Positions 24,848-48,941 of a stretch of DNA of 64,000 nucleotides are shown piece by piece. Within the stretch, counting starts at the first letter, position 1, and each line of letters starts with the position of its first letter. The notes beneath the pieces are model-generated. The model saw nothing but the letters and a program-made list of their open reading frames with translations, did not search any database and was not told where the DNA came from. Origin of the DNA: Haloglomus salinum (GTDB lineage Archaea; Halobacteriota; Halobacteria; Halobacteriales; Haloarculaceae); the NCBI RefSeq assembly GCF_024298825.1, contig NZ_CP101153.1, forward strand, positions 1,178,001 to 1,242,000, read 5' to 3'. The position numbers were made by a program, and so were the translations under genes.

Positions 24848-25948
24848 TCAGCCGCGGGTCGGCAGGTAGGCCAGCGCGACGATCATCAGCGCACCGAAGC
24901 CGGAGAGGATGGAGATGCCCCAGAGACCGTTCATCCGCTCGTGGTAGTAGTCCTGTTGTTCGACCTGACCCTGGTAGCTCCCGAAGTCCGAGGAGATGAC
25001 GACCGTACTGGGGTTGGCGAAGTGGACGACGTGGGTCTGCCCGGTGAGCGTGACGTTGGCGCCCTCGGTCAGTTCCTGGCTCGTGGTCCGGGGCCCGGTC
25101 CACTCGATGAGGACACGGTCGCTGGAGATGTTCGCGACGGTCGTCTCGTTGGCCGGGACCGAGAGGTCCTCGGCCGCACGGTAGGTGAGCGTGTCACCCT
25201 CGGTGAACGTCGTCCTCGCGGGTTCGGGGAGGTACGCGTCGAGCGGCTGGGTGGTACCGTTGCGGTAGCGGACGAACTGCCCGTCGTCGCTGCCGTACAC
25301 CTGGTTCTCGACGTCCGGGTCGTTCCGGAGGCGCTCGGTCACGTTGAACCGCTGGACGGCGTGGAACTCGCTCACGTCGGTCACGTTCGGGATGACGACC
25401 TCGTAGTTGTCACCCCAGACCACCGTGGCCGAGGTGTTGCCGACCTCGGTGACCGTGGCGGTGGTGTTCTCGTACGGGAGGCTGTCGCCGACGGCGAACG
25501 AGGCCGTGACGTTACCGGTCGCGTTCACCAGCGATAGCTCACCGCCGGAGACGTTGGCAGTCTGCTGGGTGCCGTTGTACTGGACGGAGTCGCCGTTCTG
25601 GATGGTGGCCGAGAACTCGCCCTGCTTGCCCGTCCACGAGGAGTTGGTCGGGGAGAGTGCCGTCCCGTTCGACAGCTCGGCGCTGTAGACGAACGAATCG
25701 TTCGTTGTCGAGAGCTGGCCGACCAGCGTCGTGCCGCCCCCACCACCGTGGCCGCCACCGCCGCTGCTCTGCTCGGAGATGTTCGAGACGGTGTACGTCT
25801 TCCCGTCGACCGTCATGGAATCGCCCACTGCGAGTTCCTCGCCATCGAGGTCGATGGTGGGCTGCTGTGCCACCGCGATGACCGAATAGGCACTCGCCCC
25901 CATGACGACGAAGAAGACGAGGTATATCGCCGCGACTCGTCGTTGCAT
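24848..25948 (-). CDS. Exported or membrane-anchored protein with two terminal helices
   Basis: 366 aa. An N-terminal hydrophobic segment (about residues 7-28) acts as signal or anchor, a long Asn/Thr/Ser-rich extracytoplasmic domain follows (residues 30-330) with more than ten N-x-S/T sequons and a Gly/His-rich loop (GGGGHGGGGG near 63), and a C-terminal helix (about 342-362) precedes a short basic end. The beta-strand rhythm includes repeated 'VGDS' turns ('LAVGDSMTVDG', 'FAVGDSLPYEN'). It may be an outer-membrane-side enzyme or cell-surface protein. It lies next to the PGF-CTERM cluster on the same strand but is not a member. Function unknown. Confidence 0.65.
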   Translation of the reverse strand: MQRRVAAIYLVFFVVMGASAYSVIAVAQQPTIDLDGEELAVGDSMTVDGKTYTVSNISEQSSGGGGHGGGGGTTLVGQLSTTNDSFVYSAELSNGTALSPTNSSWTGKQGEFSATIQNGDSVQYNGTQQTANVSGGELSLVNATGNVTASFAVGDSLPYENTTATVTEVGNTSATVVWGDNYEVVIPNVTDVSEFHAVQRFNVTERLRNDPDVENQVYGSDDGQFVRYRNGTTQPLDAYLPEPARTTFTEGDTLTYRAAEDLSVPANETTVANISSDRVLIEWTGPRTTSQELTEGANVTLTGQTHVVHFANPSTVVISSDFGSYQGQVEQQDYYHERMNGLWGISILSGFGALMIVALAYLPTRG

Positions 25949-26045: not shown

Positions 26046-27167
26046 TCAGCCGCGCCGGAACGCGAGCAGCGCCGCCGCCAGCAGGCCGACGAGCGCGGCG
26101 ACCGCGCCGAAGCCCGGTCCCGCACCGACCGTCGGGGTCGCCGGACCCTGTCCGGCGCCGCCGGGGGCGGCCGTCCGGGTCGCCGTGGCCGTCGACCCGC
26201 CGGTCGCACCGTCGTCAGCAGCACCACCACCGGCAGCACCGTCCCCGTCGCCGCTCTGGTCCCCACCGTCGTTCGCCGTCGCGGTCGCCGCGGCTGTCGC
26301 GGTCGCTTCGGCCGTCTCCTCGGGTGTCGCCGTCGCGGTGGCTTCCGGAACCGCCGTCGCGGTCGCGGTCGTTTCCGGGGTCGCGGTTGCGGTGGCCGTC
26401 GCCTCGGGCGTCGCAGTCGCGGTTGCGGTGGCCGTCGCCTCGGGCGTCGCCGTCGGCTCACTGTCGCCGCTGGTCCCCTCTTCACTCGGCGGCGGGCCGA
26501 GCTGCTCGCGGGCTGCCTGCTCGCTCCCGCACTCGCAGACGTAGAAGTAGTGCGAGTTGAGCGACACATCGAACTCGTTGCCGTTGTAGCCGGTGCCGTT
26601 GAGGAAGCCGTTGATCTGGTACCAGCCCGGCTCGCTGGGCATCGTGTAACACTGGTTCTGGACGGCCACGATCTCGTCGACGGCGTTGATGGAGATCGGC
26701 TCGCCGGCGAGGTCCCCCTCGTCGAAGAAGTCGATGACGATCTCGTGTTCCTTGAACTGCGAGTTCTCGCGGGCCGCCAGCAGCGACTCGTCGGTCTTCG
26801 TCCCCTCGGCGTCGTTCTCGCGGTCGAGCCCGAACGCAGCCGTGTTCTCCGTCGAACACTCGCCGAAGTTGACGTCCTCGTTTCCGATGATGAGGAAGCC
26901 GGCCGCCTCGTACCCCTTCGGTGACGGCGTCCCGTCGAAGGCACTCCCCGAGACAGCCCGGTGCTGGATGCTCGCGTTACCCGGATTCATATCGCCCGGG
27001 TAGTGGTCCACTTCGTTGGGCAGGAACACCGTGTAATCACCGCTCGTGCCGTGGTTCGTCCCGGCACCCCCGGTACCGGCGCCCCCCACGCCACCCACCA
27101 CCATGAGGGCGGCTATCGTGACAACTGCAATCGTTAACGCGCCGCTGAATTGGTTTCTGGCCGCCAT
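26046..27167 (-). CDS. PGF-CTERM surface protein, cluster paralogue 1
   Basis: 373 aa. Signal peptide about residues 10-35. Ectodomain about 43-225 with the cluster's shared blocks: 'DYTVFLPNEVDHYPG', 'NASIQH', 'ECSTENTAAFGLDR', 'CYTMPSEPGWYQI', 'LNGTGYNGN', 'SHYFYVCECGSE'. Four cysteines (104, 173, 211, 213) are conserved in all five paralogues. A Thr-Ala-Pro-Glu linker (about 238-330) precedes 'GAGPGFGAVAALVGLL' and a short RRG end. That is the PGF-CTERM signal recognised by archaeosortase A, which replaces the tail with a lipid anchor. TATA-like TTTTATAG lies about 35 nt before ATG 27167. Confidence 0.85.
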   Translation of the reverse strand: MAARNQFSGALTIAVVTIAALMVVGGVGGAGTGGAGTNHGTSGDYTVFLPNEVDHYPGDMNPGNASIQHRAVSGSAFDGTPSPKGYEAAGFLIIGNEDVNFGECSTENTAAFGLDRENDAEGTKTDESLLAARENSQFKEHEIVIDFFDEGDLAGEPISINAVDEIVAVQNQCYTMPSEPGWYQINGFLNGTGYNGNEFDVSLNSHYFYVCECGSEQAAREQLGPPPSEEGTSGDSEPTATPEATATATATATPEATATATATPETTATATAVPEATATATPEETAEATATAAATATANDGGDQSGDGDGAAGGGAADDGATGGSTATATRTAAPGGAGQGPATPTVGAGPGFGAVAALVGLLAAALLAFRRG

Positions 27168-27273
27168 TCGGATTCTTATCCCAGGAAACGGATGGAGCTA
27201 TAAAACCCTTCGTTCCCACACAGGGACAAAAACCGACCGTCTCATGGCGGCTGGACGCCCCAGAGCGAGCCGT

Positions 27274-28404
27274 TCAGTCGCGCCGGACCGCGAGCAGCGC
27301 CGCCGCCAGCACGCCGCCCAGCGCGGCCGCCAGGCCGAATCCCGGGCCGGCCCCGGCCGTCGGCGTCGCCGGGCCTGCACCCTGCTGGACGGTCTGCTGT
27401 TGAGTACCGCCCGAACCACCGGTGTTGGCACCGCCATTCGTGCCCGCCGTCGCTGTCGCGGTCTGTCCGGTTGCGCCACCGCCACCACCACCGCCGCCGC
27501 TAGCTGCCTCGGTCGCCGTGGCCGTCGCGGTTGCGGTCGGGGTCCTCGTGGCCGTCGCGGTCGCGGTTGCGGTCGGGGTCCTCGTAGCCGTCGCGGTCGC
27601 GGTCGACTCGCTACCGCCGCCACCGCCGGATGTCTCGGTCGCCGTCGCCGTCGGCTCCGGTGTGGCCGTCGCGGTCGCGGTCGACTCGCCACCACCACCA
27701 TCGCCACCACCGCCACCGTCGTCGGACGGCGGCGGGCCGAGTTTCTCGCGGGCCTCCTGCTCGCTCTGACAGTCACAGATGTAGAAGTAGTGCGAGCGGA
27801 TGGTTCCCTGGTCCTTGCTGTCGATGTAGTTCCCGTTGTAGCCGGTACCGTTGATGCGCGCGCTGATCTGGTACCAGCCCGGCTCGCTGGGCATCTCGTA
27901 GCAGTCCTGCTGGACCGCGACGATCTGGTCGATGGCGTTGTACCGGACGGGTGACCCGGCGATCGAGTCCGGGCCGAAGAAGTTCACGAAGATGGCGTGC
28001 TGCTTGAACGACGAGGTCTGTCGGTGCTGCAGGAGCCCCTCGTCGGTCCTCGTCCCGGTGTTGTTGTTGCCGTAGTCGAGGCCGAACGCGGCCGTGTCCT
28101 CCGTGGTACAGCCGCCGAAGACGATATCCTGGTTGCTGATGGTCAGTGTATCCATCCGTTTGAGCCCCTTCGGCGAGGAGGTGGCCTCGAAGGAGTCACC
28201 GCCCGCCGCGAGGTGCCAGATGCTCGCCGCACCACCCTGAGTCCCGGGGTAATGGTCGGCCTGGTTCGGCAGGGCGACCGTGTAGTTCGAACCGATGCCG
28301 TTGTCGTGGCCGGTCGCGGCCGCCCCACCAGTGGCGGCCCCACCGCCGACCGCCACCACCGCGAGCGCCACCGCCGCGACGACGACGAGCGTCGAGGTAC
28401 GCAT
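27274..28404 (-). CDS. PGF-CTERM surface protein, cluster paralogue 2
   Basis: 376 aa from ATG 28404 (a longer reading to 28437 adds a non-signal leader). Closest in layout to paralogue 1: ectodomain 'NYTVALPNQADHYPG', 'GCTTEDTAAFGLDY', 'CYEMPSEPGWYQIS', 'HYFYICDCQSEQEAREKLG', without the insertion found in paralogues 3-5. The linker mixes Gly runs with Thr-Ala repeats ('TPTATATATATRTPTATA'). C-terminus 'GAGPGFGLAAALGGVLAAAL' plus RRD. A TATA-like element lies 50-80 nt upstream. Same four Cys pattern; surface display expected, ligand unknown. Confidence 0.85.
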   Translation of the reverse strand: MRTSTLVVVAAVALAVVAVGGGAATGGAAATGHDNGIGSNYTVALPNQADHYPGTQGGAASIWHLAAGGDSFEATSSPKGLKRMDTLTISNQDIVFGGCTTEDTAAFGLDYGNNNTGTRTDEGLLQHRQTSSFKQHAIFVNFFGPDSIAGSPVRYNAIDQIVAVQQDCYEMPSEPGWYQISARINGTGYNGNYIDSKDQGTIRSHYFYICDCQSEQEAREKLGPPPSDDGGGGGDGGGGESTATATATPEPTATATETSGGGGGSESTATATATRTPTATATATATRTPTATATATATEAASGGGGGGGGATGQTATATAGTNGGANTGGSGGTQQQTVQQGAGPATPTAGAGPGFGLAAALGGVLAAALLAVRRD

Positions 28405-28623
28405 ACCCAGACGGAACGTTCTCGGACGGAAAAGCACTTCGAGATTTTCGAGGGATATACCGTGTTAGACCGATTCATGGAAATATAATCCGTTTCGAAG
28501 TGTAGATGCTGGCAAAATAATCGGGGCGAGGTGCTAGCGAAGTAATCAGTGACGGGAAGGCGACGAGTCCGTCGGGAGGGTCACACCTCGACGAACGGGA
28601 AGGTGAGGGCCGGGTCGTTTCGG

Positions 28624-29886
28624 TCAGTCGCGCCGGACCGCGAGGAGCGCGGCCGCCAGCACGCCGCCCAGCGCCGCCACGAGGCCGAAGCCCGGCCCGG
28701 ACCCGGCCGTCGGCGTCATCGGGCCAGCATCCTGCTGGTTCTGCTGAGCCTGCTGGCCGCCGCCCGAACCGCCGGTGTTGGCACCGCCGTTCGCGCCCGC
28801 CGTCGCCGTCACTGTCACCGTCTGCCCGGCCGCGCCACCGCCACCACCGCCGCCGCCCCCTGCACCGGCATCGCCGCCACCTGTACCGCCGCCACCGCTT
28901 CCCGCCTCGGTCGCCGTCGGCTCCGGCGTGGCCGTCGCGGTGGCAGTCGCGGTAGCGGTCGGCGTCGCCGTCGCCGTCGCCGTCGGTTCGCTACCACCGC
29001 CGCCACCGTCACCGCCGCCACCGCTGCTCGTCTCGGTGGCAGTCGCAGTCGCCTCGGGCGTCGCCGTCGCCGTCGCCGTCGAGGAGTCACCGCCGCCGCT
29101 CTCGTACGGGTTCTCCTGACCCGGCGGGGCGCCGAGCTGGTTGTACGCTTCCTCCTCCGACTGGCACTCACAGATGTAGTAGTAGTGCGAGACCAGGTTC
29201 ACCTCGACCTCGTTACCGCTGTAGGAGGTACCGTTCGCGTAGCCCTGGATCTGGTACCAGCCGGGCTCGGTGGGCATCCCGTAGCACGGGCCGCCTCCGG
29301 ACTGATACCCCTGATGGGCGACGATCTGGTCGTCCGAGTACAGCTCGGCGTTGCCGTCGCCGTCCTCTCTGCCGGTCTCGGCGCCGCCCTTGTCGCTCGG
29401 GCTCGGCGAGGCCAGCTCGTCACCCTCGTACAGGTAGATGTCGATGGAGTGGTCGTTGAACGAGTTCTTCTCCAGATACCGAAGGAGGTCGACGTCGACC
29501 TTCGTCCCCGGGTCGTCGCTGTCCCGGTCGATACCGAACGCCGCCGTGTTCGAGGTCGAACACTGCGAGAAATCCACGTCCGGGTTGCCGATCCGGATGT
29601 ACTTCAGATGCTCGACGCCCCGAGAGGCGCCCGCGTTCTCGAACAGTTCCTCCGTCCCGGCCGCGTAATGGTTGATGCTCGCGTTGTTGGGTCCGCCGGG
29701 GTTCTTGGCCCGCGGATAGTGGTCCGTCGCGAACGGTAGATCGACGGTGTAGTTCCCGTTCTCCGCACCGTGGCCCGTACTGCTGGCCGCCGTGGAGGGG
29801 GCGGCACCGGCACCACCGGTCACCCCCGCCACGACCGCGAGGACCGCTACCGCGCCGAGGATGACCGCCGTGCGCTGTCGTGTCAT
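28624..29886 (-). CDS. PGF-CTERM surface protein, cluster paralogue 3
   Basis: 420 aa from ATG 29886. With paralogues 4 and 5 it forms a sub-group: 'ENGNYTVDLPFATDHYPR', 'NPGGPNNASINH', 'QCSTSNTAAFGIDRD', and an extra acidic insertion in mid-ectodomain ('DELASPSPSDKGGAETGRE'). 'GPCYGMPTEPGWYQI' and 'HYYYICECQSEEEA' carry the conserved cysteines. Linker of Thr-Ala repeats and Gly runs up to 11 long. C-terminus 'GSGPGFGLVAALGGVLAAAL' plus RRD. TATA box TGTATAAATG lies about 60 nt upstream, giving a leader of about 30 nt. Confidence 0.85.
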   Translation of the reverse strand: MTRQRTAVILGAVAVLAVVAGVTGGAGAAPSTAASSTGHGAENGNYTVDLPFATDHYPRAKNPGGPNNASINHYAAGTEELFENAGASRGVEHLKYIRIGNPDVDFSQCSTSNTAAFGIDRDSDDPGTKVDVDLLRYLEKNSFNDHSIDIYLYEGDELASPSPSDKGGAETGREDGDGNAELYSDDQIVAHQGYQSGGGPCYGMPTEPGWYQIQGYANGTSYSGNEVEVNLVSHYYYICECQSEEEAYNQLGAPPGQENPYESGGGDSSTATATATPEATATATETSSGGGGDGGGGGSEPTATATATPTATATATATATPEPTATEAGSGGGGTGGGDAGAGGGGGGGGGAAGQTVTVTATAGANGGANTGGSGGGQQAQQNQQDAGPMTPTAGSGPGFGLVAALGGVLAAALLAVRRD

Positions 29887-30036
29887 GCATCCCGTACCTT
29901 TCACTGTCCCTCCCTAACCTCGTTGCAGGGATTGAACGGGCATTTATACATTTTGCTTGTACTGAACGGTTGTTTCATACGTCCAGGTTCCAGATAGCGA
30001 GAAGCGGTCACCAGCGTTCCGTCCGCCGATTCGCTG

Positions 30037-31302
30037 TCAGTCGCGCCGGACCGCGAGCAGTGCGGCCGCCAGCACGCCGCCCAGCGCCGCCACGAGGCCG
30101 AAGCCCGGCCCGGACCCGGCCGTCGGCGTCGTGACGCCCGCAGCCTGCTGTTGTCTAGGCTGCCCGCCGCTGGACTGTCCACCACCACCACCGCCCTGCT
30201 GAGCCTGCTGCCCGCCGGACTGGCTACTCCCGCCGCCAGCCGCCGTGGCCGTGGACGTGACCGTGGACGCACCCTCGCTCGATGATTCCGGCGTCGCCGT
30301 CGATTCCCCGCCGCTACCGGACGACTCGGGAGTCGCGGTGGGCGTAGCGGTAGCGGTCAGGGTCGGGGTCGGCGTTGCGGTCGCCGTCGCCGTGGCAGTC
30401 ACGTCGGTCGACCCGCTCCCCCCGCCGGACGGGGCCGGCGTCGCGGTGGTTGTCGCGTCCGGGGACGATGAGCCGTCGCTGCTCTCGCTCCTATCGGCGT
30501 AGGGGTTCTCCTGGCCCGGCGGCGCGCCGAGCTGGTCGTACGCCTCCCGCTCGGAGTCGCACTCACAGATGTAGAAGTAGTGCGAGGGGAGGGTCAGTTC
30601 GACGTAGTTCCCGTTGAACGCGGTTCCGTTGAGGAACCCGGTCATCTGGTACCACCCGGGCTCGGTGGGCATTCCGTAGCAGGGGCCGCCACCGGCCTTG
30701 TACCCCTGGTGCGAGACGATCTCGTCGTCGGGGTACACCTCGACGTTCCCGTCACCGTCCTCGCGACCCTGGCCCTTCTCGCCCGGGTTCTCCCCAGCCC
30801 CTCCCTGGTCACTCGGGCTCGGCGAGGCCAGTTCGTCGCCCTCGTAGAGGTTGACGACGATGCTGTGTTTCTCGAACCGCGAGTTCTCACGGTACTGGAG
30901 CAGTCCGACATCGGTGACCGTCCCGGCGTCGTCGTTGTCCCGGTCGATACCGAACGCACCCGTGTTCGAGGTCTCACACTGCGAGAAGTCGGTATCCTGG
31001 TTCGAGACGATGATGAACTCGGCCTGCTCGATGCCCTTCTTCCCGCCGGCCGCCTCCAGCTGTTCCGGAGTCGACGCCGAGAGGTGGTTGATACTCGCGT
31101 TGTACGGCCCGCCCGGGTTCTCGTCCCGCGGATAGTGGTCCGTCGCGAACGGCAGGTCGACCGTGTAGTTCCCGTTCTCCGCGCCGTGGTCGGTGTCCAC
31201 GGTTGCCCCCGACGGCGCCGCGCCGACGGCGCCGGACAGCACTGCGACCGCTCCGACGATGGCGACCGCCGCGAGGACGACCGCCGTCCGTTGTTGAATC
31301 AT
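30037..31302 (-). CDS. PGF-CTERM surface protein, cluster paralogue 4
   Basis: 421 aa. The sub-group ectodomain is present ('ENGNYTVDLPFATDHYPR', 'ETSNTGAFGIDRDNDD', 'GPCYGMPTEPGWYQMTG', 'HYFYICECDSEREAYDQLG') with the acidic insertion slightly longer than in paralogue 3 ('GENPGEKGQGREDGDGN'). The linker is Ser/Thr/Pro-rich with a shorter Thr-Ala run and a Gln/Gly-rich part. The last 110 nt of coding sequence are identical to those of paralogue 5 (see repeat entries). PGF-CTERM end as in the others. TATA-like AAATAAATG lies about 60 nt upstream. Confidence 0.85.
   Translation of the reverse strand: MIQQRTAVVLAAVAIVGAVAVLSGAVGAAPSGATVDTDHGAENGNYTVDLPFATDHYPRDENPGGPYNASINHLSASTPEQLEAAGGKKGIEQAEFIIVSNQDTDFSQCETSNTGAFGIDRDNDDAGTVTDVGLLQYRENSRFEKHSIVVNLYEGDELASPSPSDQGGAGENPGEKGQGREDGDGNVEVYPDDEIVSHQGYKAGGGPCYGMPTEPGWYQMTGFLNGTAFNGNYVELTLPSHYFYICECDSEREAYDQLGAPPGQENPYADRSESSDGSSSPDATTTATPAPSGGGSGSTDVTATATATATPTPTLTATATPTATPESSGSGGESTATPESSSEGASTVTSTATAAGGGSSQSGGQQAQQGGGGGGQSSGGQPRQQQAAGVTTPTAGSGPGFGLVAALGGVLAAALLAVRRD
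30041..30150. repeat. 110-nt identical segment, copy in paralogue 4
   Basis: This segment covers the PGF-CTERM anchor and the end of the linker of paralogue 4. It is base-for-base identical to 31505-31614 in paralogue 5, while the genes outside it have diverged. Paralogue 3 (28627 on) has the same segment with a few changes. Confidence 0.8.
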
Positions 31303-31500
31303 ATGCCCCGCGACAGAGACAAAGCGGACATATCCCTGTTGCGGGTATTACAGGGTCATTTATTTCGAATAGCGTGAATGAACGGACAGTCTGCAGCAGA
31401 CAGAACAGACGTTTCAGTCCACAAGGGCGGAGAGAACGAGAGAATAGCCACGACCAGACTGACTCGCCATTCAAGTACCGGCAGATAGCGAGCGGCCGTG

Positions 31501-32727
31501 CTAATCGCGCCGGACCGCGAGCAGTGCGGCCGCCAGCACGCCGCCCAGCGCCGCCACGAGGCCGAAGCCCGGCCCGGACCCGGCCGTCGGCGTCGTGACG
31601 CCCGCAGCCTGCTGGTCCTGCTGGACCTGCTGGCCACCGTCGGAGCCGCCACCCACAGTGACCGAGGCCGTCACGGTCCCATCACCCGTACCGCCGCCAC
31701 CGCTCGCACCGCCGCCGTCGGACTCGGCACCACCGCTCGCGCCACCACCGGAGTCATCCGGGGTCGGCGTAGCTGTCCGTGTCGCCGTCGGTTCGGGCGT
31801 GACCGTCGCCGTCGGTGTCGGCGTCAGTTCGGGCGTGGCCGTCGGTTCGGTCGTCGCGGTCGCCGTCGACGCACCCGCGGAGCCGCCCGAGTCGGTCGTC
31901 GCGGTCGCCGTCGCCGTCGAACCGGCGCCCGAACCGCTCTCGCTCCCGTCCGCGTAAGGGTTCTCCTGGCCCGGCGGCGCGCCGAGCTGGTCGTACGCCG
32001 CCTTCTCGGAGTCGCACTCGCAGACGTAGAAGTAGTGCGACGGGATGGTCACGTCGGCGTAGTTACCGCTGAACCCGGTCCCGTTGATGAAGCCGGTGAT
32101 CTGGTACCAGCCGGGGTCGGTGGGCATCCCGTAGCACGGGCCACCCCCGGACTTGTATCCCTGGTGTGCGACGATCTCGTCGTCGGGGTACACCTCGGGG
32201 TCCTTGTCACCGTCCTCGCGGCCGGTCTCCTTGCCGGCCTTGTCCTCCCGGCTCTTCGCGCCGAGGTCGTCGTCGTTGTAGAACTCGACGACGATGCTGT
32301 GGTCGCGGAACTCGGAGTTCTTCCGGTAGGCCAGCAGTCCGACGTCGGTCTTCGTCCCGGCGGCGTCGTTGTCCCGGTCGATACCGAACGCCGCCGTGTT
32401 CGAGGTCGAACACTGCGAGAAGTCGATGTCCTGGTTCGAGATGATGATGAAGTCCACCTCCTCAAGCCCCTCCGGGACGTCCTTCTTCTCGAACAGCTCC
32501 GGGGTCGCTGCGGCGAAGTGGTTGATGCTGGCGTTGTGGGTGCCACCGGGGTTCTTGCTCCGCGGGTAGTGGTCCGTCGCGAACGGCAGGTTCACCGTGT
32601 AGTTCCCGTTCTCCACACCGTGGCCGCTGTCGGCGGTTGCGGAGGCTCCGACCCCGCCGGCCAGGACACTGACGGCGAGCAGCACGGCGGTCGCCCCGAC
32701 GAGAACGACAGTCGAATTTCGTGTCAT
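31501..32727 (-). CDS. PGF-CTERM surface protein, cluster paralogue 5
   Basis: 408 aa, first gene of the row in the direction of transcription. Ectodomain blocks: 'ENGNYTVNLPFATDHYPR', 'GGTHNASINHFAA', 'QCSTSNTAAFGIDRDNDAAG', 'GPCYGMPTDPGWYQITG', 'HYFYVCECDSEKAAYDQLG', with a Lys-rich version of the insertion ('DDLGAKSREDKAGKETGRE'). The linker has Thr-Ala-Pro repeats and Gly/Ser runs. PGF-CTERM end. TATA AATATAAATAG at about 32783-32793 lies 60 nt before the ATG. Surface-anchored by analogy with known PGF-CTERM substrates; binding partner unknown. Confidence 0.85.
   Translation of the reverse strand: MTRNSTVVLVGATAVLLAVSVLAGGVGASATADSGHGVENGNYTVNLPFATDHYPRSKNPGGTHNASINHFAAATPELFEKKDVPEGLEEVDFIIISNQDIDFSQCSTSNTAAFGIDRDNDAAGTKTDVGLLAYRKNSEFRDHSIVVEFYNDDDLGAKSREDKAGKETGREDGDKDPEVYPDDEIVAHQGYKSGGGPCYGMPTDPGWYQITGFINGTGFSGNYADVTIPSHYFYVCECDSEKAAYDQLGAPPGQENPYADGSESGSGAGSTATATATTDSGGSAGASTATATTEPTATPELTPTPTATVTPEPTATRTATPTPDDSGGGASGGAESDGGGASGGGGTGDGTVTASVTVGGGSDGGQQVQQDQQAAGVTTPTAGSGPGFGLVAALGGVLAAALLAVRRD
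31505..31614. repeat. 110-nt identical segment, copy in paralogue 5
   Basis: Partner of the identical segment at 30041-30150. Identity stops abruptly at both ends, a pattern expected from gene conversion or from very strong constraint; constraint alone would leave silent differences. Confidence 0.8.
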
Positions 32728-33177
32728 ATATCCACTACGAACGGCGCGATTTACCTAATCGCTCTGCTGGGAGTACGCGGCTATTTATATTAGAACACCT
32801 CTAGAAAAAGGCATATTCTTAAACTAAACCAACCACCAGGGAGATCGCAGTTCACTGAATATTCTGTCAACTAGTGAGAAGGAATGTGAAGTGACTGGAT
32901 ATTCAGTCTGCGAGGAGAACGAGGAGCACCGCGGTAGCGAACGGACACGGTGCTATGGGTCGAGAGTCGGTAATCAGGGAGGATTTATATTCATTGATTA
33001 CTCACGACTGCTCACCTGCATGGACAGCGGACAGTTCGCGAGTATCGACCGATGGACGGGCGGACGGAAGCCCGAACCGTCGAATCACACGGAACCGGAC
33101 GGAGTGGCAACAGGCCGCATGCACCTATTAAACGGCCGGAGTTGCCCAGCGCAACGGCTTAACGGAAACAGTAAACA
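32728..33177. other. Intergenic region between the surface cluster and the Liv operon
   Basis: 450 nt, more AT-rich than its surroundings. It holds the TATA box of paralogue 5 (about 32783-32793, minus strand) and, on the + strand, ctattaaacg (about 33124-33133), which could serve the substrate-binding protein gene with a leader of about 25 nt. A 96-codon open reading at 32891 has no protein-like composition. Nothing else seen. Confidence 0.55.
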
Positions 33178-34665
33178 ATGACAGACAGCATGGCAGAGGA
33201 AACAGGAGATACGGGTGACGGAAGCGGCCGTCGCTCGTTCCTCAAATACGCGGGGGCCGGTGGGGCCGCCGCGTTGGCAGCGGGTTGTAAGACACGAGAG
33301 AATCCAGGCGCCAGCGGCGGCTTCGACAACACCGTCACCGGAAACAGTACCGGCAGCGGGACCGCACCGCCACAGCCCCTCGCTGGCAACAGCATCAACA
33401 TCGGCTGCCTGGCGCCCCAGCCGGACAGCTTCCCGGTCGGCCAGTCGATGTGGAACTCGATGCAGCTGGCCGTCGAGGACATCAACAAGAACGGCGTGCC
33501 CGGCATCGGCGGCCGTGGCATCCTCGGCGCGAAACTCAATGCCGTCTCGGGCAACACCGAGGCCTCGCCGGGGACCGGACTGAACGAGTTCAACCGGCTC
33601 GTCCAAGCCGAGGGCTGCAAGACCACCTTCGGCACCTTCCTCACGCAGGTCACGCTCCAGTGCTTCAACGCGATGAAGGCGACCCAGACGGTCCACATCA
33701 CGACCGCGGCCGCGGGGCCGAAGCCGGGTCGCATCGTCCACGAGCGCTACGACGAGTTCAAGTGGCACTTCCGCGCCGGCCCCATCAACTCCTTCGACCT
33801 CGCACGCGCGGAACTCGAGTTCCTCAACCTCTACGCCGACAAGCTCGGCTGGAACACGGCGGCCGCCCTCATCGAGAACATCGCCCCGTTCGACCCCTTC
33901 GCCGAGCTGCTCGAGCCGAACGTCGGCGAGTTCTTCGACGACGTGCCGGTGTTCAAGCGCTCCTCCTCGGGGACGACCAACTGGACGCCGCTGTTCGACG
34001 AGGTGGAGTCCTCCGGCGCCGACGTCTGTCTGATCGCACAGGCGCTGACGGGCACCGCGGCGGTCAAGCAGTGGGCCAACCAGAACCGCTCGTTCGAGAT
34101 GGGCGGCATCAGCCTGCCCGCGCAGATCTACGAGTTCTGGGAGGAGGTCTCGGGCGCGTGCCAGTACATCTTCACGATGAACGCCGTCACCCCGCAGACG
34201 ACCAACACGCCCCGGACCCAGGACTTCATGAAGCGGTACCGGAAGAAGTTCGACACGTATCCCGTCTACTCCGGTCCCATCACCTTCGACGCCGTCAAGG
34301 CCTACGCCGTCGCGATGGCGCGCTACGTCATCGACAACGACCTCGACCGCATCCCCACCAACGAGGAGATGGTCGATGCCCTCGAGACGTACAAGTTCGA
34401 CCAGGGGACCATCCTGCCGGAGATCAAGTTCACGCCGCCGGAGGCCGACTACGCCCACGAGCCGGCCTGGACCTCGATGAAGGAGACCGGCGTCCCGGTC
34501 TGGCAGCAGTGGCAGGTCGACGAGGAAATCGCCGACGACTACGGCGTGATGCACTCGTTCGCGCCGGAGCAGAACAAGACCTCGCCGTACGCCTACCCGG
34601 ACTGGATCGACTACCCCGGCGACCACCCCGCCAACACCGAGGGGCCGCCGGGCAAGGACGCCTGA
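33178..34665 (+). CDS. Branched-chain amino-acid-type ABC transporter substrate-binding lipoprotein
   Basis: 495 aa. A Tat signal with 'GRRSFLKYAG' near residue 18 leads to a lipobox-like 'LAAGC' (Cys near 37), so the protein is exported folded and lipid-anchored outside the membrane. The mature part is a type I periplasmic-binding fold ('INIGCLAPQPDSFPVGQSM', 'AVEDINKNG', 'TTFGTFLTQVT', 'YSGPITFDAVKAYAVAMARY'). Family ligands are branched-chain amino acids, amides or urea; the ligand cannot be told here. First gene of a five-gene operon with two permeases and two ATPases. The Asn/Gly/Ser linker after the lipobox is typical of haloarchaeal lipoproteins. Confidence 0.9.
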   Translation: MTDSMAEETGDTGDGSGRRSFLKYAGAGGAAALAAGCKTRENPGASGGFDNTVTGNSTGSGTAPPQPLAGNSINIGCLAPQPDSFPVGQSMWNSMQLAVEDINKNGVPGIGGRGILGAKLNAVSGNTEASPGTGLNEFNRLVQAEGCKTTFGTFLTQVTLQCFNAMKATQTVHITTAAAGPKPGRIVHERYDEFKWHFRAGPINSFDLARAELEFLNLYADKLGWNTAAALIENIAPFDPFAELLEPNVGEFFDDVPVFKRSSSGTTNWTPLFDEVESSGADVCLIAQALTGTAAVKQWANQNRSFEMGGISLPAQIYEFWEEVSGACQYIFTMNAVTPQTTNTPRTQDFMKRYRKKFDTYPVYSGPITFDAVKAYAVAMARYVIDNDLDRIPTNEEMVDALETYKFDQGTILPEIKFTPPEADYAHEPAWTSMKETGVPVWQQWQVDEEIADDYGVMHSFAPEQNKTSPYAYPDWIDYPGDHPANTEGPPGKDA

Positions 34666-34726: not shown

Positions 34727-35608
34727 ATGGTCAGTCTCGCAAACGTCCTCATCAACGCCATCTCGATCAGTTCCCTCTACGCGATCATCGCGATCGGGTT
34801 CACACTGATCTTCGGCGTTGGTGGGGTCCTGAACTTCTCGCACGGCGCGCTAATCACCATCGGGGCGGAAGCCTCGTGGCTCATCTCCGGGGGTAGCTCC
34901 CCGCTGAAGCTGGGGCTCAATCCTGCCGTCGGACTCATCGGCGGCATGATCACTGCCGCACTCGTGAGCGGCGCCCTCTACCTCGGGGTCGTCCGGTTCG
35001 TCGAGGACGAACCGGTCACGCTGCTCATCCTCACGTTCATCATCGGCTTCTTCATCCAGCACGCCTGTCGGGTGTTCCTGACCGGCACCGGGAACTTCTC
35101 CGTCGACCTGATCGTCGAGGGCAGTACGAGCCTGGGCGGCGTCGGCGTCCAGAACATCAGCGTGTTTATTTTCGTGCTGTCGATGCTGCTGGTCGCCCTC
35201 ACGGGCCTGTTCGTCTCCCGGACGAAGACCGGGAAGGCGATTCTCGCGGTGTCGATGTCCGACAAGGGCGCGGCGGTCGTGGGCATCGACGCCCGGAAGA
35301 TCAACCTCGTCACGTGGCTCCTGGCGGGCGCGTTCGCCGGCATCGCGGGGGTGCTCCTCACGATGAAGAATACCGGCACCTGGACGATGGGCACCCAGCC
35401 GCTCATCCTGGCGTTCTCCATCGTCATCCTGGGTGGCCTCGGTTCCATCAAGGGCTCCGTCGTCGGGGCCTACATCATCGGGTTCACCGAGACCATCACC
35501 ACCCAGTACATCGACTCCTCACTGCAGGGGTTCTCCGCGCTCGTCCTGTTGATCGTGTTCCTGCTCGTCAAGCCCGAAGGTCTGTTCGGGCGGGAGGCTG
35601 CTGAATAA
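34727..35608 (+). CDS. livH: ABC importer permease, LivH type
   Basis: 293 aa with eight or more helices and the LivH pattern: 'LINAISISSLYAIIAIGFTL' at the start, 'GVLNFSHGALITIGAE' near 33-48, the cytoplasmic coupling segment 'MSDKGAAVVGIDARKINLVT' near 180, and 'GGLGSIKGSVVGAYIIGF' near 232. Forms the membrane channel with LivM. It starts 61 nt after the binding-protein gene and its stop overlaps the next start by one base (TAATG). Confidence 0.9.
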   Translation: MVSLANVLINAISISSLYAIIAIGFTLIFGVGGVLNFSHGALITIGAEASWLISGGSSPLKLGLNPAVGLIGGMITAALVSGALYLGVVRFVEDEPVTLLILTFIIGFFIQHACRVFLTGTGNFSVDLIVEGSTSLGGVGVQNISVFIFVLSMLLVALTGLFVSRTKTGKAILAVSMSDKGAAVVGIDARKINLVTWLLAGAFAGIAGVLLTMKNTGTWTMGTQPLILAFSIVILGGLGSIKGSVVGAYIIGFTETITTQYIDSSLQGFSALVLLIVFLLVKPEGLFGREAAE

Positions 35609-36855
35609 TGTCCACGGAAAACGAATCCATCATCGGCGGTTCGACCGGCGCCGAGCGCCGACAGGCGGTGCTCGAGAAGCTCAACCCTATCGCGATGCCC
35701 CTTCGGTTCCAGATCGGGCTGCTGGGGCTGTTGCTGTTCGTGCTGCTCCCGACACAGCTCTACCCCGACCAGATGGGTGGCCCGACCACCCTCATCTTCC
35801 TCGCCATCTTCGGGATGTCGTGGGACGTCGTCTCGGGGTACACCGGGCAGCTCTCGTTCGGACACGCCTTCTTCATCGCGCTGGGCGGCTACACCACCGC
35901 CGTCCTCGACATCCAGCACGGCATCACGCCAGTCATCGGCATCCCCGTCGGGATGATCGTGGCGGGCATCGGTGGCGTGCTGGTCGGGCTCCCCGCGCTC
36001 CGGCTTCGCGGCCCGTATCTGTCGCTGGTGACGCTCATCGTCCCGATCATCCTGTCGAAGCTGTTCACGCTGTTCAACAACAGCTTCACCCCGCTCGGCA
36101 TCCCCATCGCGCCCGACGGCCTCGGGGGCCGGAACGGCCCCGGCCTCCCGACCCAGCTGTTCGGCATCGACGGCAGTGGGGCCGTGGTCGAGCTGGCCTC
36201 GGGCTACTCCGGTATCCAGCAGACCGCGCTCGCGAACTACTACTTCGCGCTCGCGCTGATGGTCGTGGTGCTGGTGGTGTTAATCGGCGTCACCCGGTCG
36301 TCGGCGGGGTCGGTGTTCACCGCCATCCGCGAGGACGAGGACGCCGTCGCGGCCGCGGGGCTGGACGGCGCGAAGTTCAAGCTGTTCGCGTTCGTCCTCT
36401 CGGCGCTTGTCGCCGGGCTCGGCGGTGCCATCTGGGTCCACACGATCAAGACCCCGACGCCGCTGGGCATCCTCGGCCAGGACGATATCCAGCAGAGCAT
36501 CAACCTCATCATCATCTCCATCCTCGGCGGGACCGGCACCATCGTCGGGCCCATCGTGGGAGCGGTGGTGTACGCGATGACCGGCATCGTCATCGGGCTG
36601 ATCGACCCGCTCATCGGCTTCGATCTGGCCAACCTGCGGCCGCTCCCGCTGCTGGCAGCCGCGATGGCCGTCCTCGTGTTCGCGCCCGGTGGCATCCTCC
36701 GGGCGGGCATCCGGAGCGGTCGGATGGTGCTGGCGTCGGCTCGCGGCGAGGAGTACGAGGGCCAGTCGGTCGGCGGCGACGGCGACTCCGCCCTCGGGGA
36801 GATCATCGAGAAGTACCGCGCGGAACTGCGTGAGATCATCGACGAGCGTCGATAA
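35608..36855 (+). CDS. livM: ABC importer permease, LivM type
   Basis: 415 aa. LivM features: 'GYTGQLSFGHAFFIALGGYT' near 81, a cluster of Gly/Leu-rich helices, the coupling segment 'REDEDAVAAAGLDGAKFKLFAFV' near 240, and 'IISILGGTGTIVGPIVGAVV' near 298. An extra hydrophilic loop of about 50 residues follows the fourth helix ('PDGLGGRNGPGLPTQLFG'), and an acidic/charged cytoplasmic tail of about 45 residues follows the last helix. Start ATG overlaps the LivH stop, so translation is coupled. Confidence 0.9.
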   Translation: MSTENESIIGGSTGAERRQAVLEKLNPIAMPLRFQIGLLGLLLFVLLPTQLYPDQMGGPTTLIFLAIFGMSWDVVSGYTGQLSFGHAFFIALGGYTTAVLDIQHGITPVIGIPVGMIVAGIGGVLVGLPALRLRGPYLSLVTLIVPIILSKLFTLFNNSFTPLGIPIAPDGLGGRNGPGLPTQLFGIDGSGAVVELASGYSGIQQTALANYYFALALMVVVLVVLIGVTRSSAGSVFTAIREDEDAVAAAGLDGAKFKLFAFVLSALVAGLGGAIWVHTIKTPTPLGILGQDDIQQSINLIIISILGGTGTIVGPIVGAVVYAMTGIVIGLIDPLIGFDLANLRPLPLLAAAMAVLVFAPGGILRAGIRSGRMVLASARGEEYEGQSVGGDGDSALGEIIEKYRAELREIIDERR

Positions 36856-36857
36856 CA

Positions 36858-37658
36858 ATGAGCACTGACGAACAACAGAGCGGCGAGCGCGCCACGCCCA
36901 CGGGGAGCGGTCTCGGCCCCCAGGACGGCGTCCTCGTCGCCAACGACCTGCGGAAGGAGTTCGGCGGACTGACGGCGGTCGACGACCTGTCGTTCGCCGT
37001 CCAGGAACAGGAGATCCTCGGCTTCATCGGTCCGAACGGCGCCGGGAAGTCGACCACGTTCAACTGCGTCACCGGCTTCTACGAGCCGACCGACGGTACC
37101 GTCTGGTTCAAGGGTGAGGACGTCACCGGGCTGGACTCCCACGAGATGGTCCAGGCGGGGATGGCCCGCACCTTCCAGGACTTCGCCCCACTCTCGGACC
37201 GCACGGTTGTCCGGAACGTGGCGCTGTCACTGGCGCCCGACGAGCTGTTCACGCTCGCGGGCGTGGGCGGCGAGACGACGCGGCTGGCAGAGGAGATCTG
37301 CCGCCGCGTCGGGCTGGGTGACCAGCTCCAGGAGACACCCAGCGAACTCCCGCACGCCGGGATGTTGAAGCTGGAGCTGGCCAAAGCCATCGCGACCAAC
37401 CCCGACCTGATGCTGGTCGACGAGCCGTTCGCCGGCCTCTCCAGCGGCGAGGTCCAGGAACTGACGGACGTACTCCTCAGCCTCCGGGACAACGGGATGA
37501 CCCTCATCGTGGTCGACCACAACATGCGTGGCCTGCTGAACCTCATCGACCGCGCGTTCGTCATCCAGTTCGGTGCGAAGATCGCCGAGGGGTCACCCGA
37601 CGAGATCACGGACGACCCGAAAGTTCAAGAAGCATACCTCGGTGGTGATGAGATATGA
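36858..37658 (+). CDS. livG: ABC importer ATP-binding protein, LivG type
   Basis: 266 aa. Walker A GPNGAGKST near residue 58, Q-loop 'ARTFQDFAPLSDRTV' near 99 (LivG-typical), Walker B 'LMLVDEPFAGLSSGE' near 178, switch His in 'VVDHNMRGLLNL' near 218. The signature motif is changed: where LSxGQ is expected the protein reads 'ELPHAGMLKLELAKAIATN', a variant also seen in other haloarchaeal LivG proteins as far as I recall. Two bases separate it from livM. Provides ATP hydrolysis together with LivF. Confidence 0.9.
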   Translation: MSTDEQQSGERATPTGSGLGPQDGVLVANDLRKEFGGLTAVDDLSFAVQEQEILGFIGPNGAGKSTTFNCVTGFYEPTDGTVWFKGEDVTGLDSHEMVQAGMARTFQDFAPLSDRTVVRNVALSLAPDELFTLAGVGGETTRLAEEICRRVGLGDQLQETPSELPHAGMLKLELAKAIATNPDLMLVDEPFAGLSSGEVQELTDVLLSLRDNGMTLIVVDHNMRGLLNLIDRAFVIQFGAKIAEGSPDEITDDPKVQEAYLGGDEI

Positions 37659-38413
37659 GCAGCCAGTCCAGAGCGGGTGCCGGTGCGGGCGCAGCCGGTG
37701 GCGGCAACATGGTCCTCGAGGCCGAGAACGTACAGGTCTCCTACGGGAAGGTCACCGCCCTCCGGGGTGTGGACCTCGAACTCGCGGAGGGCGAGCTCGT
37801 CTCGCTCATCGGTCCGAACGGCGCCGGGAAGACGACGTTCTGTGACACCGTCAACGGGTTCCTCCCGTTCGGCGGGAGCGTCCGCTTCCGCGGCGCCGAG
37901 GTCGGCAGTGTGTCGCGCGACGAGCTCGTCGACCGCGGGATGATATACTGCACCGAGGAACGGGACCTCTTCGGCTTCATGGACGTCGAGGACAACCTCC
38001 GGCTCGGCGCTTACGCCATCGACGACGAGAGCTACGTCGAACAGCAGCTGGAGTTCGTCTACGACCTCTTCCCGCGCCTGGAGGAACGGACCGACCAGAA
38101 CGCGCGCTCGATGTCCGGCGGTGAGCAGCAGATGCTCGCCATCGGCCGCGCGCTGATGGGCGACCCGGACCTGCTCGTCCTCGACGAGCCGACCATCGGC
38201 CTCGCGCCGGTCATCCTCGAGGACATCTCCCAGGCCATCGACCCCATCCAGGAGCAGGGCGTCTCCATCCTGCTGACCGAGCAGAACGTCACGTTCGCGC
38301 TCGACCACGCCGACCGGATGTACCTCCTCGAGAACGGGGAGGTGGTCAAGACCGGCACCCCCGAGGAACTCCGCGGCGACGACTACATCCGCGAGACCTA
38401 CCTCGGCGGGTAA
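37655..38413 (+). CDS. livF: ABC importer ATP-binding protein, LivF type
   Basis: 252 aa. Walker A GPNGAGKTT near residue 54, Q-loop 'IYCTEERDLFGFMDVEDNL' near 98 (LivF-typical), signature MSGGEQQ near 150, Walker B 'LLVLDEPTIGLAP' near 170, and switch His replaced by 'LLTEQNVTFAL' (Gln/Asn at the usual position, as in LivF proteins). The Ala/Gly-rich first 20 residues are disordered. ATGA overlap with the livG stop. Last gene of the operon. Confidence 0.92.
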   Translation: MSSQSRAGAGAGAAGGGNMVLEAENVQVSYGKVTALRGVDLELAEGELVSLIGPNGAGKTTFCDTVNGFLPFGGSVRFRGAEVGSVSRDELVDRGMIYCTEERDLFGFMDVEDNLRLGAYAIDDESYVEQQLEFVYDLFPRLEERTDQNARSMSGGEQQMLAIGRALMGDPDLLVLDEPTIGLAPVILEDISQAIDPIQEQGVSILLTEQNVTFALDHADRMYLLENGEVVKTGTPEELRGDDYIRETYLGG

Positions 38414-42215: not shown

Positions 42216-42325
42216 CCGCGATACCCTCAATCCCTACCAGACTTCGTCGGAATAGGCCGGCAATACAGACTATTACCGAACCGTCGAGCGGATAGCGATG
42301 CCGCTGTCGTAGGGTCAGGAAGGAA

Positions 42326-42401
42326 AGCCATGGGCCGGATTTGAACCGGCGATATGCGGCTCTGCAGGCCGCCGCGTTCGGCCGGACTCTGCCACCATGG
42401 C
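42326..42401 (-). tRNA. tRNA-Cys (anticodon GCA)
   Basis: 76 nt on the minus strand. Acceptor GCCATGG pairs with CCATGGC, discriminator T; anticodon loop CTGCAGA with GCA; T-arm GCCGG-TTCAAAT-CCGGC. Matches the archaeal tRNA-Cys pattern. In haloarchaea this tRNA usually follows 5S rRNA directly in the rRNA operon; here the acyl-CoA dehydrogenase gene lies between. Confidence 0.93.
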
Positions 42402-42494
42402 CCGCACGCGTGACTAGTCCAACGGACGGCAAAAGCGTAGCGGTCCGGTGGGAGGTCGAACGGCCCCGACGACGATCGACGGAGCCGCCCGTCT

Positions 42495-43688
42495 CTAGTA
42501 CGACCGCGGCAGCCCGAGCGTGTGCTCGGCGACGTGGTTGCGCATCATCTCCGTGCTGCCGGGCGCGACCTTGCCCAGGCGCGAGCCCTTCCACATCTCG
42601 ATGACGGCGTAGTCACGCGAGAAGCCGTTGCCACCGTGGGTCTGGACCGCCACGTCGGTGGCGTCGTGGCCGACCTCCGTCGCGCGGAGCTTCGCCATGT
42701 TCGAGACCTCGGCGGTCTTCTTCGGGTCCGGCTCGTTATCGACCATCCACGCGGCCTTGCGCAGCAGGAGCTGGGCGGCCTCGAGCTTCGTCCAGGAGTC
42801 GGCGATGGGATGCTGGATGGCCTGGTGCGCGCCGATGGGCTGGTCGAAGACCTCGCGCTCCTTCGCGTAGTCGATGGCGCGGTTCAGGGCGCACTTGCCC
42901 GTCCCGATGGCGCCCGCGGAGCCGAGCAGGCGCTCGGGGTTGACCGTGTCGAACAGCTGGTAGAGGCCCATGCCCGGGGTGCCGACGACATCCTCCTCGT
43001 GGACGCGGACACCGTCGAACGAGAGCTCGAACTGCTTCTCCGGCGTGGGGATGCCGACGTCGAGTTCGCGCTTCTCCAGGTTCGGGTCGTCCGGGTCGAC
43101 GAGGAACAGGGTGACCCCCTGCATCTTCGCCGCGTCGTCCTTCGAGTCCGTGCGCGCGACCGTCAACATCCGGTCGGCGTAGTCGACGCCGGAGATCCAC
43201 TGCTTGGTCCCCTCGATGACGTACTCGTCGCCATCCTTCTCGGCAAACGTCGTCATGTTGGGCGCGTTGTGGCCCGCATCGGGTTCGGTCAGGGCCATCG
43301 CCCAGTTGGCGTCACCGTTGCAGATCTTCGGGAGCCACTCCTCCTTCTGCTCCTCACTCCCGTTCTCGACGAGCGTGATGCCGCCGAAGCAGACGTTCAC
43401 GACGAACAGCATCTCCGCACCCATGCAGCCCTGGGTACACAGCTCCTCGACGATGGCGCTCAGTTCCCAGAACCCCATCCCCTCGCCGCCGTACTCCTGC
43501 GGGATGGCGGCGCCGAGGAACCCGGCATCCGCACAGTCGTTCCAGAACTCTTCCGGCTTCTTCCCCTCGGAGACCTCGAACCAGTACTCGTCGTCGTAGC
43601 CGGCCGCCACGTCGCGGGCCGTCTGACGGATCATGTCCAGCTCGGCCGTCTCCTCGAACGCAGGCGGGGTGGACTGTGTGGTGGTCAC
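42495..43688 (-). CDS. Acyl-CoA dehydrogenase
   Basis: 397 aa flavoprotein that oxidises acyl-CoA to 2-enoyl-CoA and passes electrons to ETF. Family blocks: 'AIPQEYGGEGMGFWE' near 62, 'AMALTEPDAGHNAPNM' near 130, 'KQWISGVDYAD' near 162, 'QPIGAHQAIQHPIADSWTK' near 283, 'THGGNGFSRDYAVIEMWK' near 350. The usual catalytic Glu of MCAD (position 376) is Pro376 here (VAPGSTE); Glu252 in 'NPERLLGSAG' matches the alternative base position of isovaleryl- and long-chain acyl-CoA dehydrogenases. GTG start at 43688 is set by a TATA box 28 nt upstream; the ATG at 43727 lies upstream of that promoter. Confidence 0.9.
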   Translation of the reverse strand: MTTTQSTPPAFEETAELDMIRQTARDVAAGYDDEYWFEVSEGKKPEEFWNDCADAGFLGAAIPQEYGGEGMGFWELSAIVEELCTQGCMGAEMLFVVNVCFGGITLVENGSEEQKEEWLPKICNGDANWAMALTEPDAGHNAPNMTTFAEKDGDEYVIEGTKQWISGVDYADRMLTVARTDSKDDAAKMQGVTLFLVDPDDPNLEKRELDVGIPTPEKQFELSFDGVRVHEEDVVGTPGMGLYQLFDTVNPERLLGSAGAIGTGKCALNRAIDYAKEREVFDQPIGAHQAIQHPIADSWTKLEAAQLLLRKAAWMVDNEPDPKKTAEVSNMAKLRATEVGHDATDVAVQTHGGNGFSRDYAVIEMWKGSRLGKVAPGSTEMMRNHVAEHTLGLPRSY

Positions 43689-43711
43689 ATGCGCACGCAG
43701 GTCTGCGTGTT

Positions 43712-43719
43712 CTATAAAG
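43712..43719 (-). promoter_or_regulatory. TATA box of the acyl-CoA dehydrogenase gene
   Basis: On the minus strand ACTTTATAG is centred about 28 nt before the GTG at 43688. It shows that the gene has its own promoter and is not only read through from the rRNA operon. Confidence 0.6.
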
Positions 43720-43841
43720 TTTCGCAACTAACAACGCCGGTAGTGTTTCCGGGCAGCCGAACATGTCCACCCGCGAGCGTTGCCACTGTTCGAGAATCGA
43801 GATTGGCGAGCGACACGGCTGGCGCTCACCAAGGACAGAAA

Positions 43842-43867
43842 GCCGAGTGACAGGGTTGTCACTCGGC
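43842..43867. other. Perfect 11-bp hairpin downstream of 5S rRNA
   Basis: GCCGAGTGACA and TGTCACTCGGC form an exact stem with a GGGT loop, about 50 nt downstream of the 5S 3' end in the direction of transcription. There is no T-run next to it, so it may be a processing or mRNA/rRNA boundary structure rather than a terminator. Confidence 0.45.
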
Positions 43868-43916
43868 GTGTGATGAACCGGAGAGAGACGGAAGCCCCTC
43901 TCCGTGAGTAATGAAT

Positions 43917-44039
43917 GGCAGGCGGCGAACCGGTGTTCCCAGAGGCTCGCGCACTCCAGTACTGGCCGGAACGCTGGCGGGCTTAACTACCGTGTTCGGG
44001 ATGGGTACGGGTGTGGCCCCGCCGCTGTGGCCGCCTTAA
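43917..44039 (-). rRNA. 5S ribosomal RNA
   Basis: The minus strand begins TTAAGGCGGCCACAGCGGCG and ends near GCCGCCTGCC. Inside are conserved 5S blocks: CCCGTACCCATCCCGAACACGG (helix III / loop B-C area) and GCCAGTACTGGAGTGCGCGAGC. Ends pair as helix I (GGCGGCCA/TGCCGCC-like). Boundaries are approximate to a few bases. Confidence 0.9.
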
Positions 44040-44103
44040 CGCCGATCGACGGAATCGAACCGTCGTGATGCCAATATCGGTGGCGAGATCGCGTGTATTG
44101 AAT

Positions 44104-44146
44104 GTGTGATTTCCAGTTAGCGCCTGGACCCGTTCACGGAGTCCGA
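44104..44146 (-). other. Pre-23S processing stem, 3' half (bulge-helix-bulge)
   Basis: Pairs with 47075-47117. The 3' strand reads GTGAACGGGTCCAG-GCGC-TAA-CTGGAAATCACAC. With the 5' strand it makes a long helix interrupted by a 4-bp GCGC helix flanked by 3-nt bulges TAA and ACA, the exact substrate of the archaeal splicing endonuclease. Confidence 0.85.
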
Positions 44147-47065
<2,919 letters not shown>

Positions 47066-47074
47066 GACTATAAC

Positions 47075-47117
47075 TCGGACCCTGTGAACGGGTCCAGTGT
47101 GCGCCTGGAAATCACAC
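47075..47117 (-). other. Pre-23S processing stem, 5' half (bulge-helix-bulge)
   Basis: The 5' strand reads GTGTGATTTCCAG-GCGC-ACA-CTGGACCCGTTCAC on the minus strand and pairs with 44104-44146. The bulge ACA and the partner bulge TAA lie on opposite sides of the 4-bp GCGC helix. Confidence 0.85.
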
Positions 47118-47261
47118 GTACACGCGATCTCATCTGCAGCGTTGCGGGTGGGCAACCTGCATCAACCCTTCCCACTCACGCTTGCACGGAGTGGTGCATC
47201 GGTCTGTTACGGGAAAGCGCAGGACGCCACTTGAGGGCATCGCTTTGCTTCCCCGCAAACA

Positions 47262-47333
47262 TGGACCCAGCGAGATTCGAACTCGCGGCATCCTCCTTGC
47301 AAAGGAGGCACTCTACCACTGAGCTATGGGCCC
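47262..47333 (-). tRNA. tRNA-Ala (anticodon TGC), 16S-23S spacer
   Basis: 72 nt between 16S and 23S. Acceptor GGGCCCA pairs with TGGGTCC, discriminator A; anticodon arm CTCCT-TTGCAAG-AGG region with TGC; T-arm GCGAG-TTCGAAT-CTCGC. Position in the spacer is standard for archaeal rRNA operons. No CCA encoded, no intron. Confidence 0.95.
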
Positions 47334-47340
47334 TTCGTCA

Positions 47341-47387
47341 GCCTTGACAGTTCTTAGGTGCTCGGTCGACCCTCGTCGAACGTCCGA
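47341..47387 (-). other. Pre-16S processing stem, 3' half (bulge-helix-bulge)
   Basis: Pairs with 48942-48988: TCGGACGTTC / GAACGTCCGA, TCGACCGAG / CTCGGTCGA, CACC / GGTG, and GAACTGTCAAGGC / GCCTTGACAGTTC. The 4-bp CACC/GGTG helix is flanked by 3-nt bulges TAA and ACA, a canonical cut site for the splicing endonuclease. Confidence 0.85.
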
Positions 47388-47429
47388 AGCGAAAGGTGGG
47401 CCCACCACGATGGGTGGGTCCCGGTCATT

Positions 47430-48901
<1,472 letters not shown>

Positions 48902-48941
48902 GTGCCTCGCACAAGGCGAGGCGGGTTAAGGCGGGATGCTA

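Follow-up and report, generated by a model that had tools for sequence, protein, structure and literature searches.

Five genes in tandem on the minus strand of a 64,000-nucleotide stretch of the Haloglomus salinum genome (contig NZ_CP101153.1, positions 1,178,001 to 1,242,000, here called the window and numbered from its first letter) encode surface proteins whose cysteine-bearing ectodomain forms a previously undescribed family. Across genomes, loci of this family lie close to HAAT (LIV-type) ATP-binding cassette (ABC) importers or to HVO_0513-type regulators far more often than expected by chance. We favour, without being quite convinced of it, the reading that members act mainly at the cell surface, capturing substrate for one particular subfamily of HAAT importers or serving it as accessory proteins. 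Members account for 15 of the 32 PGF-CTERM proteins detected in the genome; about half of this surface repertoire thus belongs to one unnamed family, and the linkage gives these proteins a first functional clue.

The array comprises paralogue 1 (26046 to 27167, 373 amino acids), paralogue 2 (27274 to 28437, 387 amino acids, with a listed GTG start and a possible internal ATG), paralogue 3 (28624 to 29904, 426 amino acids as listed, where an internal ATG at MTRQ may be the true start), paralogue 4 (30037 to 31302, 421 amino acids) and paralogue 5 (31501 to 32727, 408 amino acids). The open reading frames and their alignment agree with the preliminary description of this region, which had reported five paralogues of one PGF-CTERM architecture on the same strand. 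Paralogues 2 to 5 share 49-59% pairwise identity with paralogue 1, and each of the five begins with a hydrophobic segment, followed by an ectodomain of about 180-215 residues, a linker and a C-terminal PGF-hydrophobic-RR segment. The ectodomains are encoded at about 26490-27053, 27730-28296, 29140-29751, 30535-31167 and 31990-32601, respectively. Four cysteines (C104, C173, C211 and C213 in paralogue 1) occupy equivalent columns in all five proteins, as had been claimed, and are invariant together with DHYP, PGWYQ, SHYxYxCxC and GPGFG. Among the longer motifs quoted earlier, YTVxLPxxxDHYP, CYxMPxxPGWYQ and SHYxYxCxC are present in every copy, while NASIxH and CxTxNTxAFG do not hold in paralogue 2, which reads AASIWH and CTTEDTAAFG. 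The division into two sub-groups was also borne out: paralogues 3-5 (type A) carry the acidic insertion, in contrast to paralogues 1 and 2 (type B), and a longer insert region is found in type A orthologues of other genera as well.

By inspection, the N-termini are hydrophobic in all five proteins and the linkers, of 124-143 residues, are Thr-rich and consist mostly of T, A and G, as in PGF-CTERM proteins generally. The GPGFG-hydrophobic-RR anchor is intact in all five, so that by motif each carries the C-terminal PGF-CTERM signal (TIGR04126/PF18204) of ArtA-dependent surface proteins; against the TIGR04126 cut-off of 24.5 bits, paralogue 1 scores above (28.9), paralogues 3-5 fall just below (22.0-22.1) and no match is reported for paralogue 2. 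Processing by ArtA, lipid anchoring and glycosylation of the five proteins are predicted from these features. Disulfide bonds between the cysteines are likewise predicted; full-length members throughout the family keep all four, with no natural losses that reveal the pairing.

Searches with Pfam and NCBIfam matched only the anchor of the five proteins and nothing in the ectodomain, and the family profile found no match among PDB sequences up to E=1, in line with the earlier remark that this domain has no named family. A profile search identified 15 clear members at seven places in the genome. Ten of them lie outside the window array: four solitary genes, near 2119, 2224, 2344 and 2741 kb, and two trios, one at 3095-3099 kb and the other at 3372-3375 kb. 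Their spread was searched in 59 related genomes and then in 392 genomes of the class, taking E <1e-25 as a strong match. Strong matches were confined in both sets to four genera of one Halobacteriales family (Natronomonadaceae in NCBI), a range as narrow as would be expected of a new surface family; members occur in Haloglomus halophilum, H. irregulare, Halorarius litoreus, H. halobius and the metagenome-assembled genome (MAG) QS_4_70_19, and in two further genera, here g10 and g16. Members are diverse, with 33-56% identity to a central member when its own orthologue is excluded. No relative of the family was found in the viral contigs searched, nor in plasmids searched with a single query. 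In g10, two other runs of three consecutive PGF-CTERM genes each (G375:C1:2553520-2556125 and G311:C1:1578520-1581187) gave no match to the family profile, pointing to another tandem surface family.

A complete HAAT operon stands divergent from the array on the plus strand. It consists of a substrate-binding lipoprotein of the HAAT/LIV type (Peripla_BP_6, E 7.7e-25; 33178 to 34665), a LivH-type permease (34727 to 35608) and a LivM-type permease (35608 to 36855), both with BPD_transp_2, and ATPases of the LivG (36858 to 37658) and LivF (37655 to 38413) types. Haloglomus, Halorarius and g16 all keep this neighbourhood of array and importer. Elsewhere in the genome, the trio at 3372 kb is convergent with a HAAT operon and the gene at 2119 kb lies directly upstream of one, while the main arrays of g10 are found just upstream of a HAAT operon on the same strand. 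The linkage thus recurs whether family genes and importer diverge (window), run in the same direction (L053, G311, G375) or converge (L049).

We quantified this association at 44 family loci of eight genomes by comparison with 5000 random draws. With limits that were set after the loci had been seen, a Peripla_BP_6 gene lies within 8 kb at 16 of the 44 loci (null mean 1.8, maximum 8) and a regulator with an HVO_0513_N domain (PF24278) within 3.5 kb at 18 (null mean 1.3, maximum 8). Pfam confirmed HVO_0513_N together with HTH_10 in five of the adjacent regulators. An importer or a regulator is present at 33 loci and both at only one, L067 of H. halophilum. The member at this locus (6262-7866, minus strand) carries two repeats of the ectodomain, with the HVO_0513-type regulator and the gene for the HAAT binding protein next to it. 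Within the window's own genome, three of the seven loci are near a Peripla_BP_6 gene (P=0.0018), and the corresponding value for regulators is P=0.028. PGF-CTERM genes outside the family served as a control in six genomes: importers accompany 12 of 34 member loci versus 1 of 83 non-member loci (Fisher P=7.5e-7), and HVO_0513-type regulators 13 of 34 versus 1 of 83 (Fisher P=1.7e-7). Such specific linkage to HAAT importers is what an accessory role would lead one to expect. Moreover, in a tree of 33 binding proteins of the HAAT type, those linked to the family group together almost as a clade, and the tree of members is strongly structured by genomic context. A literature search on HVO_0513, and on haloarchaeal PGF-CTERM proteins with branched-chain importers, found no paper.

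Structure prediction, which the preliminary description had proposed, gave a single confident fold that retains the conserved cysteines. The AlphaFold2 model of the ectodomain, built from a 41-row alignment, is an immunoglobulin (Ig)-like beta-sandwich (predicted local distance difference test, pLDDT, 92.6; predicted template modelling score, pTM, 0.86). The best solved structure in Foldseek is TTHA1873 of Thermus thermophilus (PDB 7WWO, 7WWN and 7WRK; E 8e-5, about 9-10% identity), which matches in structure at TM scores of 0.41-0.47 but not in sequence; a literature search on TTHA1873 and 7WWO/7WWN found no paper. Next come domains of the adhesins Als3, ClfA, SdrE, UafA and Ace (E from about 1e-4 to about 1e-3, probability 1.00). 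The similarity is modest throughout, with TM scores to the query mostly of 0.35-0.51 and root-mean-square deviations of about 5-8 A. These MSCRAMM and Als domains place an Ig-like beta-sandwich on a surface stalk, as the present proteins are modelled to do, but they use a docked pair of domains rather than one, an LPXTG anchor rather than one of archaeosortase type, and a different genomic setting. Sequence homology to MSCRAMM or DEv-IgG domains is not seen either, the search of PDB sequences being empty up to E=1.

A wider kinship emerged from weak matches in other haloarchaeal families. These cousins have no cysteines in the matching domain, and many share a similar linker and style of anchor. 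One passes the cut-off of DUF2808 (PF10989) with 29.7 versus 25.3 bits. They share with the family the core GIDRGNDxxG...D-(I/V)V...NPxxxGxY, and occur across other families of the order, with only two weak places in the H. salinum genome; the PGWY motif, the CxC tail and the four cysteines that never vary are peculiar to the family. Profile-profile comparison by hhalign joins the two groups over 96 columns (probability 96.5%, E 8e-10), and the model of the cousins (pLDDT 84) also matches TTHA1873 and MSCRAMM domains; against PDB sequences, the cousins' profile returned only one implausible xylanase match. Because of the hhalign result and the shared match to TTHA1873, we regard the ectodomain as most likely a cysteine-bearing branch of a wider DUF2808-like sandwich domain in haloarchaea. 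This places it in a DUF2808-like superfamily in the wide sense; strict DUF2808 membership was considered and rejected, as PF10989 matches none of the five proteins. We also observed long TP- or TT-repeat linkers in haloarchaeal proteins that carry a DUF2808-like domain once or twice (L105 1408-2880, L111 1402-2994 and L110 694-1995); in one of these proteins, L111, DUF2808 is above the Pfam cut-off.

The array itself varies in size among relatives while its surroundings persist, copy number and neighbours being the two points that the preliminary description had suggested comparing. The window locus holds one copy in g16, two in each Halorarius, three in the MAG plus one more at the end of a contig, and four, five and five in the others. 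The gene downstream of the array (24848 to 25948, minus strand) encodes a secreted or membrane protein of 366 amino acids without a Pfam or NCBIfam family; it comes after the array at every one of the seven loci compared, with identity as low as 34%. At this locus each Halorarius carries a type A gene and a type B gene, and in the member tree the Haloglomus copies fall into types A and B as orthologous sets. Paralogues 2-5 each correspond to a single orthologue in H. halophilum, with 94-98% ectodomain identity and a ratio of nonsynonymous to synonymous substitution (dN/dS) of 0.06-0.18. The ectodomain of paralogue 1 has a dN/dS of 0.26, and the linkers, with 0.23-0.49, change faster than the ectodomains. 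This pattern argues, at the level of sequence, for copies with stable, separately maintained functions under purifying selection. Paralogue 1 stands out by its distance from the orthologue in H. halophilum (78% identity in the ectodomain; dS 0.46 versus about 0.2 in its neighbours), which hints at a different history, as if it had been replaced by recombination or transfer.

The type A genes share a promoter element of 23 nucleotides with a consensus near GTAyTsCCwGCArAGsGrTTAGG, located about 17 nucleotides downstream of the TATA box and conserved across both Haloglomus and Halorarius. Within the window, it occurs on the minus strand before paralogue 3 (29913 to 29935, 3' of the TATA box, score 29.8), paralogue 4 (31329 to 31351, score 26.2) and paralogue 5 (32754 to 32776, score 33.5); these three sites, which helped to build the matrix, compare with 12.2 for the best other site in the window. 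Weaker matches also lie upstream of g10 members, which had no part in building the matrix. The element is possibly an operator at the transcription start, and since it sits with a TATA box before individual type A genes, each gene of the array probably has its own promoter. A copy of the element before the importer had seemed plausible by eye; it scored -4.6, ranking about 350th in the window, and was discarded.

Considering these results together, we propose that each protein would display one cysteine-bearing Ig-like beta-sandwich on a long Thr/Ala/Gly stalk, probably glycosylated and held by a PGF-CTERM anchor of the ArtA type. The heads may bind the substrate of the importer, or a carrier of that substrate, at or beyond the surface layer (S-layer), and could in this way increase the amount of it that reaches the binding lipoprotein below. 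Several copies in tandem at an importer locus would diversify binding, and dispersed relatives may have been placed under HVO_0513-type HTH-10 regulators of their own. The ligand, its binding and the link to transport are what we infer here, and we prefer nutrient capture to a changing disguise because linkage to an importer or a regulator is far above chance; the resemblance of the fold model to ligand-binding beta-sandwich surface domains also speaks for capture. A precedent for a surface-anchored partner of an ABC importer is the PGF-CTERM-anchored substrate-binding protein of TIGR04281. The present ectodomain differs in not having a binding-protein fold, and the importer here has its own Peripla_BP_6 lipoprotein; accordingly, TIGR04281 matched only at the C-terminal anchor, with 10.2-10.9 bits against a cut-off of 325.

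Several observations weigh against this proposal. Because orthologous loci are not independent, the pooled P values make the association look stronger than it is. The linked binding proteins nearly form one clade, which would allow a single ancient linkage, carried along by co-duplication, to be the source of part of the signal. At 28 of the 44 loci no importer lies within 8 kb, the similarity to adhesin folds is modest and silent on the ligand, and the absence of the type A element upstream of the importer leaves co-regulation unsupported at this level. A broader version, in which a large Ig-like receptor family forms the outermost layer of ABC nutrient import, with a paralogue set for each HAAT locus displayed above the S-layer and others wired to HVO_0513-type regulators, is conceivable but doubtful. 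If true, it would give archaea a functional equivalent, unrelated by descent, of the bacterial outer-surface proteins that capture glycans and peptides, and would bear on how archaea without an outer membrane gather nutrients outside the S-layer. In either form, the coupling yields two predictions: that the proteins capture ligands for HAAT importers, and that HVO_0513-type regulators control them.

Adhesion or recognition, suggested in the preliminary description, stays in contention because the fold resembles adhesin domains. Ig-like heads could bind cells, surfaces or polymers, expansion would widen the range of partners, and linkage to importers would reflect the co-travelling of lifestyle genes. 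An anchored head on a stalk is the usual layout of adhesins, the nearest solved structures include several, and the lineage-specific expansion is large. We nevertheless regard this explanation as unlikely: linkage to one importer and one regulator subfamily, not shared by other PGF-CTERM genes, would be unexpected, the single domain offers no two-domain docking groove, and a word search of the published Haloglomus description found neither aggregation nor clusters. A ligand-free structural role, with proteins associated with the S-layer that decorate or stabilise the envelope in particular nutrient states, would suit the family's share of the PGF-CTERM proteins, the strong purifying selection on the ectodomain and its invariant cysteines; the diversity of members and the locus-specific regulators would be unusual for a lattice protein, and make this improbable.

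It is quite improbable, in our view, that the proteins are metal-dependent, with the G(I/L)DRxN(D/N)xxG...D loop binding calcium or another metal for metal handling or as metal-stabilised spacers. In this loop G75, D77, G84 and D126 never vary, while R78, D81, T85 and D88 are nearly invariant (numbering of alignment A3), and it is partly common to the cysteine-free cousins, but its conservation could be purely structural and no association with genes for metal functions was observed. Least credible is an antigenic or phase-variable coat (the preliminary description had raised antigenic variety), in which diverged copies would aid escape from viruses or predators. Tandem copies in numbers that differ between species and the strong divergence of paralogue 1 would fit such a coat, but paralogues 2-5 are stable one-to-one orthologues, their linkers evolve faster than their ectodomains and the viral contigs hold no relative. 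We rejected antigenic variation as the principal explanation because of this orthology and the low ectodomain dN/dS (0.06-0.26 over the five, measured against H. halophilum).

Elsewhere in the window, at about 42300-49500, the G+C content falls to 58%, and this segment, whose minus strand encodes tRNA-Cys and tRNA-Ala, is probably an rRNA operon.

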